In this document: positions 25,670 to 26,038 of the stretch, piece after piece
Layout of the letters: the number at the start of each line of letters is the position of its first letter
How positions within the stretch are numbered: the stretch's first letter is position 1
Source: Acidimicrobiales bacterium
GTDB lineage: Bacteria; Actinomycetota; Acidimicrobiia; Acidimicrobiales; Aldehydirespiratoraceae
DNA length: 64,000 bases
Direction: 5' to 3'
Assembly: GCA_029263175.1 (NCBI GenBank)
Contig: JAJCXZ010000026.1
Span: 124,001 to 188,000 of the forward strand
Translations under genes and position numbers: made by a program
Notes under the pieces: generated by a model
Database searches by the model: none
What the model was told of the DNA's origin: nothing
Seen by the model: the letters and a program-made list of their open reading frames with translations, nothing else

Positions 25670-26038
25670 TCAGGCGAACAGGGCGGCGAGGCGTTCCTTG
25701 GCCTTGGCGTCGCCGAGCGGCCGACCGATGATTGCCTTGTCGGCCGTGACGATCACCGGCCGCTGCAGCAGCTTGGGGTGTGCCAAGAGAACGTCCACCA
25801 CCGCGTCGACATTGCCGACATAGTCATCCTCGTTGAGTTCCAGCTTCGCGAACTGGGCGTCCTTGCGGACGAGGTTCTCAACGGGATCCTCCAACTTGGC
25901 GATGATGTCGCGCAACGTCGCCTCGTCGGGCGGCGATTTCAGGTAGCGGATCTCTTCGAACTCGACGTTCATCTCCGTGGCGACCGCCACGGCGTTCTTG
26001 GACGAGTTTCAATTGGGGTTGTGGTAGATCGCAGTCAT
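25670..26038 (-). CDS. arsC: Probable selenocysteine-containing arsenate reductase (ArsC family)
   Basis: 122 aa if the in-frame TGA at 26011-26009 (codon 10) is read as selenocysteine. The N-terminus then reads MTAIYHNPN-U-NSSKNAVAV, matching ArsC HNPRC-x-K-S with Sec at the catalytic Cys. The rest is typical: LVRKD, LQRPVIVTADKAIIGRP with the Arg residues of the arsenate site, ending at the usual length. A 7-bp hairpin with a GGUC loop begins 16 nt after the TGA. The ATG at 26038 overlaps the stop of the upstream gene (ATGA). Without recoding, only a restart at the GTG at 25990 gives a product, and that would lack the redox centre. Alternative: a nonsense mutation. Similar Sec forms of ArsC have been reported from marine metagenomes, as I recall. 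Confidence 0.75.
25975..25992 (-). promoter_or_regulatory. Candidate bacterial SECIS element
   Basis: On the mRNA strand CCGUGGC-GGUC-GCCACGG forms a perfect 7-bp stem with a 4-nt loop. The loop starts 23 nt after the UGA and its first two bases are G. This meets the known bacterial SECIS rule (apical loop about 16-37 nt after UGA, a G in the first two loop bases). Confidence 0.7.

Follow-up and report, generated by a model that had tools for sequence, protein, structure and literature searches.

A conserved hairpin downstream of an in-frame UGA as the predicted bacterial SECIS of an ArsC-like selenoprotein gene in Acidimicrobiales

An ArsC-like gene within the 64,000-nucleotide stretch of Acidimicrobiales DNA analyzed here (the window) carries a TGA at its tenth codon, and a perfect hairpin lies a short distance downstream (Table 1). 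The question raised by this locus is whether the hairpin serves as a bacterial SECIS (bSECIS) through which the UGA is read as selenocysteine (Sec) or whether it is an accident of the codons that encode the protein. The comparison of orthologous sequences indicates that the hairpin is almost certainly the bSECIS of a Sec-containing ArsC-like arsenate reductase. The hairpin is conserved, with frozen codons, compensating changes, and absence from the Cys forms, and the Sec machinery is present, such that the recoding site is well supported.

Table 1. Positions in the window of the ArsC-like gene, its hairpin, and associated features, with the loci that carry the type II hairpin
Feature	Position	Strand	Basis or detail
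bSECIS hairpin CCGUGGC-GGUC-GCCACGG (predicted)	25975..25992	-	sequence, fold, synonymous-site freezing, covariation, absence from Cys forms
5' arm CCGTGGC	25992-25986	-	
Loop GGTC	25985-25982	-	
3' arm GCCACGG	25981-25975	-	
ArsC-like (PF03960) gene, predicted selenoprotein	25670..26038	-	122 aa, MTAIYHNPN-U-NSSKNAVAVATEM...; stop TGA 25672-25670
In-frame UGA, codon 10, predicted to be read as selenocysteine	26009..26011	-	aligned with catalytic Cys12 of R773 ArsC (1jzw alignment)
ATGA overlap, upstream ORF stop / ArsC-like start codon	26035..26038	-	upstream ORF end 26035, ArsC start 26038
Misleading 106-aa GTG ORF, called if TGA = stop; without active site	25670..25990	-	ORF listing
Type II hairpin carriers			L197-L200, L312-L322, L068, L070, L071

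Read through its single in-frame TGA, the gene translates as MTAIYHNPN-TGA-NSSKNAVAVATEMNVEFEEIRYLK... and the protein belongs to the Pfam ArsC family (PF03960; E=6e-15, 55.7 bits against a gathering score of 24 bits). With Sec entered as Cys, the TIGR00014 score of 90.8 bits falls below the curated cut-off of 106, placing the protein outside the equivalog, and it is therefore referred to as 'ArsC-like'. The protein aligns with the arsenate reductase structures 3rdw and 1jzw and contains the active-site motifs expected of PF03960 (HNPxC/U, LVR, QRP, and GRP). In a 12-row alignment, the U/C, LVR, QRP, and RP positions are invariant, and the G of GRP is replaced by S in one row. The LVR, QRP, and GRP motifs hold the ArsC active-site arginines, the catalytic role of which is established. 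Compared to the glutaredoxin-type ArsC of plasmid R773 (PDB 1jzw, 1i9d), Sec10 is positioned at Cys12 and LVRK, QRP, and GRP match the active-site arginines, but the protein differs in the substitution of Sec for Cys, the sub-cut-off TIGR00014 score, and an adjacent region in which no arsenic operon was noticed. Based on these sequence features, the enzyme may function in the reduction of arsenate.

The ATGA overlap at the start codon suggests translational coupling with the upstream ORF. The neighborhood was read by eye, and no arsenic operon genes were noticed near the ArsC-like gene. A P-II nitrogen regulator-like ORF (26921-27265, minus strand) immediately precedes the ORF of a membrane protein, which is itself followed by the ArsC-like gene, and an 1849-aa ORF (19299-24848, plus strand) resembles by eye a non-ribosomal peptide synthetase (NRPS) that includes a methyltransferase domain and an inserted luciferase-like monooxygenase.

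The geometry of the hairpin is largely as originally predicted. The position of the hairpin and its start 16 nt after the TGA are borne out by the sequence, as are the GGUC tetraloop beginning 23 nt after the TGA and the G in each of the first two loop positions. The stem was predicted as seven GC pairs, which is nearly right: all seven pairs are Watson-Crick and the stem is perfect, but six are G-C and one is U-A. The computed fold of the isolated hairpin has a minimum free energy (MFE) of -12.6 kcal/mol. Published limits for the bSECIS (a 3-9 nt loop, a 4-16 bp stem, G in the first two loop positions, spacing of 16-37 nt, and MFE ≤ -7.5), a consensus from bSECISearch, accommodate the hairpin in stem length, loop size, loop sequence, spacing, and energy, in agreement with the same claim in the prediction (PMC13188914). 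A hairpin that conforms to these limits is found after 9.4% of positions picked at random in the window, after 9.4% of all window TGA triplets, and in 15% of synonymous recodings of NSSKNAVAVATEM using the codon usage of the window; for the exact 7-bp GGUC form, the values are 1.7% of recodings and 0.06% of random places. Due to this 9-15% chance of a conforming hairpin, the single-sequence test was not used as proof. Taken as one sequence, the hairpin is suggestive but weak evidence, and the 'independent support' for which it had been taken was not strong, as codon usage alone yields a conforming hairpin approximately one time in seven; its significance comes from conservation. An Rfam scan of the 64-kb window identified one tRNA and no SECIS or other RNA, a result that is uninformative for the hairpin considered here. 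The SECIS of E. coli fdhF has a bulged U, which is lacking in the perfect 7-bp stem of the window hairpin.

The most serious rival explanation holds that GC-rich codons for the conserved peptide NAVAVAT happen to produce the hairpin, which would then have no role in recoding. The frequency of conforming hairpins among recodings and the conservation of the AVAVAT peptide itself both lend this explanation some credence, and the decision falls to the orthologues, which were collected by local alignment (a motif search had overlooked many in which the motifs vary). Orthologues with the same single in-frame TGA were identified in 57 of 100 related genomes. GGUC occurs exactly at +23 in 116 of the 144 distinct TGA-bearing orthologues, 111 of which retain all seven pairs. 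Third positions vary far less in the stem than in the remainder of the gene, demonstrating selection on the RNA at the level of sequence comparison; at each of the six four-fold codons in the stem, 96-100% of the 48 family members have the same codon, compared to a mean single-codon use of 58% at 42 codons outside the stem with four-fold or higher degeneracy (p=4.5e-5). In a second type I clade (NALAVAE), the Leu at +7 is encoded by TTG or TTA in 58 of 58 sequences and never by CTN, with TTA accompanied by GCT across the stem, and codon choice for the Leu at +13 is mixed.

The original expectation that Sec forms would keep the stem by compensating changes was also realized. Stem variants include CCGUGGC/GCCACGG, CCUUGGC/GCCGAGG, CCUUAGC/GCUGAGG, CCCUGGC/GCCGGGG, CUCUGGC/GCCGGAG, and CGUUGGC/GCCGACG, and pairing survives V-to-L and T-to-E/G amino acid changes through compensation. 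Among 12 distinct sequences, double-sided changes occur at pairs 2, 3, and 5 (pair 3 as G-C, U-A, or C-G and pair 5 as G-C, A-U, or C-G), 97.6% of cells are paired, and the covariation score was matched by none of 500 shuffles. Two sequences of family f1 (L032 and L035) have an A.C mismatch beside the loop-closing pair. Neither the type I hairpin nor the alternative type II hairpin described below is present in 11 of the 144 Sec orthologues, some of which have other conforming hairpins; L069, L073, and L202 have no conforming hairpin of 6 bp or more, and thus a strong hairpin at this place is not universal among the Sec orthologues.

Sec ArsC genes of the Acidimicrobiales type, with the type I hairpin, were also observed in metagenome-assembled genomes (MAGs) named Verrucomicrobia or Akkermansiaceae (L154, L155, L161, L162, L170, L176, L180, L182, and L186). 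The genes from Verrucomicrobia-named MAGs are approximately as similar to the gene in the window as those of Acidimicrobiia outside the family, and may reflect either lateral transfer or misbinning.

Orthologues that encode Cys, with TGC or TGT in the same column as the TGA, link the hairpin to Sec and not to Cys at the level of sequence. GGUC at +23 is present in 116 of 144 Sec orthologues and, as had been anticipated for Cys forms, in none of 40 Cys orthologues (Fisher 2e-22, without phylogenetic correction). Of the Sec orthologues, 117 of 144 have a hairpin resembling a bSECIS with E ≤ -7.5, as do 6 of the 40 Cys orthologues. The rate among the Cys forms is the background level; an equal presence of the stem in Cys forms through codon constraint alone, which would have refuted the original interpretation, is thus not what is observed. 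In the closest Cys forms, L272 and L273 (family f20), the corresponding sequences are CCTTGGC-GATT-GCGGCCG and CGTTGAA-GATC-GCCGCGG, in which the element is absent, and neither genome has a SelA match. It should be noted that the Sec/Cys contrasts rest on few independent events: an independent-pairs test, with five changes on the tree and only two independent pairs on starred branches, did not reach significance. The pattern looked for in a bSECIS, kept by compensation in Sec forms and lost in Cys forms, is that observed here, and the original interpretation of the hairpin as a recoding signal is supported through this orthologue comparison. Considering the frozen third positions, the TTR codons of the second clade, the compensated amino acid changes, and the background frequency among Cys forms, an origin of the hairpin in codon usage alone is very improbable.

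It is even less probable that the hairpin assists recoding of the UGA but that the residue inserted is Cys or Trp from another tRNA. Read-through by near-cognate tRNAs does happen in general. Against insertion of Cys or Trp, the same assembly contains the complete Sec machinery: a tRNA-Sec with a UCA anticodon, SelA adjoining SelB on contig C75, and SelD, which itself has an in-frame TGA. The combination sought in a selenoprotein, a UGA aligned with a catalytic Cys in a genome with tRNA-Sec, SelA, SelB, and SelD, is therefore present. In the sample of 100 genomes, co-occurrence with SelA is strict; a SelA match was found in 57 of 57 genomes with a TGA-containing ArsC, and a TGA-containing ArsC in none of the 20 genomes without a SelA match (Fisher 2e-9, uncorrected for phylogeny). 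Some incomplete genomes with a TGA-containing ArsC (e.g., G003, G008, and G044) yielded no full-scoring tRNA-Sec. Further, Sec and Cys exchange at the position of the catalytic thiol, and the genome of a Cys form nested among Sec forms, discussed below, lacks a SelA match.

Equally improbable is that the TGA acts as an ordinary stop or is mutational and that the gene is a pseudogene or starts downstream at GTG 25990, as, despite automated ORF calling that yields the 106-aa GTG ORF 3' of the TGA, the same single TGA occupies the same column in >100 orthologues with the frame otherwise intact on both sides, the IYHNP codons 5' of the TGA are kept in orthologues, and a downstream start would lose the catalytic residue. 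The pseudogene and downstream-start interpretations were rejected based on the conserved TGA column and intact frame, and the codon-bias interpretation based on the frozen and compensated stem and the background hairpin level of the Cys forms.

For the hairpin as a bSECIS, a mechanism can be proposed from the known operation of such elements. As the mRNA is translated, the GGUC apical loop would be recognized by SelB loaded with Sec-tRNA(Sec), and Sec would thereby reach the UGA, which lies 23 nt before the loop; without Sec delivery, the UGA would stop translation after nine residues. Binding of this hairpin by SelB and the insertion of Sec are predictions from sequence. The inserted Sec would replace the nucleophilic Cys of the HNPxC motif in a protein with conserved ArsC active-site arginines.

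Other Sec genes in the same genome have comparable elements. The hairpins of SelD (L095; UGGCGCA-GGUCG-UGCGCCG) and FdhA, a formate dehydrogenase-like molybdopterin protein (L098; UGUCGUC-GGUCU-GGCGGCA), have apical loops that likewise begin with GGUC, 32 nt (SelD) and 18 nt (FdhA) after the in-frame TGA compared to 23 nt for the ArsC-like gene. A second ArsC-like paralogue with an in-frame TGA (YYNAN-U-SKARGAVALLDERG; L082-L085 and L296) was also observed. A separate hairpin (GCGGGGC-GGUC-GCCCUGC) follows the UGA of this paralogue at 17 nt and is compensated in L084 (GCGGAGC/GCUCUGC). The UxxA motif of the paralogue differs from the published UxxS or UxxC.

The orthologues also revealed two less expected by-products, a second SECIS register and a probable reversion from Sec to Cys. 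Lacking the type I hairpin, 17 Sec orthologues in one supported clade, which spans families f7, f18, f40, f119, and f20, have in common a type II hairpin, (G)CAAUGC-CGUGM-GCAUUG(C), with the loop 17 nt after the UGA (carriers in Table 1). This hairpin overlaps type I but is shifted in register, with its loop 6 nt closer to the UGA, such that the bases of the type II loop are those of the type I stem. The AAT, GCC, GTG, and ATT codons are invariant in 17 of 17 sequences; in type I, the same Asn codon is AAT about as often as AAC. When 397 genomes were searched with the type II pattern, every zero-mismatch match was in these ArsC genes. We infer that G-U at loop positions 2 and 3 is common to the type I, type II, and FdhA loops. 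FdhA of the type II genome G056 retains a GGUCU loop, which makes a change in SelB specificity less likely.

Nested in the type II Sec clade (98 SH-aLRT, 18-row clade), L201 from genome G188 encodes Cys, and its congener G284 (L200) encodes Sec; the two proteins are identical at 81 of 115 positions. The type II hairpin is gone in L201, and no SelA match was found in G188 (99% complete), compared to a SelA match in G284. As read from a tree of few columns and a single such event, L201 probably represents a return from Sec to Cys between members of one genus, accompanied by loss of SelA and the hairpin. The main documented cases of Sec-to-Cys change are FdhA and SelD (PMC13188914), and L201 is a candidate addition to these. 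Overall, it is likely that one orthologous selenoprotein gene has two alternative SECIS in different registers and a nested Cys form that marks a Sec-to-Cys reversion with SelA loss.

Metagenomes have already yielded the Sec-containing arsenate reductase, with 14 sequences reported from the Sargasso Sea (PMC1088965) and 77 from the GOS (PMC2398784), the latter with a UxxS motif. The protein is listed in reviews, as ArsC 1 (UxxS; COG1393 / PF03960 / TIGR00014) in PMC13188914. Likened by description, the gene in the window and the published UxxS ArsC have in common the domain family, Sec at the catalytic Cys, the UxxS motif (U-N-S-S), and a bacterial SECIS downstream. As the UxxS ArsC is published as a selenoprotein family, the Acidimicrobiales gene belongs to a known kind and is a further, strongly supported case. 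The published sequences derive from metagenome surveys; here, in contrast, the family is placed in Acidimicrobiales genomes, with 144 orthologues in which the evolution of the SECIS is traced. A full-text search of the open-access literature found no paper on the selenoproteins of Acidimicrobiia in particular.

The orthologue comparison turns a guess made from one sequence into a well-supported recoding site in a gene that is truncated or missed wherever TGA is taken only as a stop. With its frozen synonymous codons, its compensated stem changes, a SECIS in a second register, and a switch from Sec to Cys among congeners, the orthologue set is a natural dataset on the loss of Sec and on the way in which an RNA signal is accommodated within a coding sequence. 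Should the interpretation of the type II clade be correct, a reading frame can be conserved while the SECIS within it is reconstructed in a different register, and the reversion of Sec to Cys would not be confined to FdhA and SelD, the cases given in PMC13188914.
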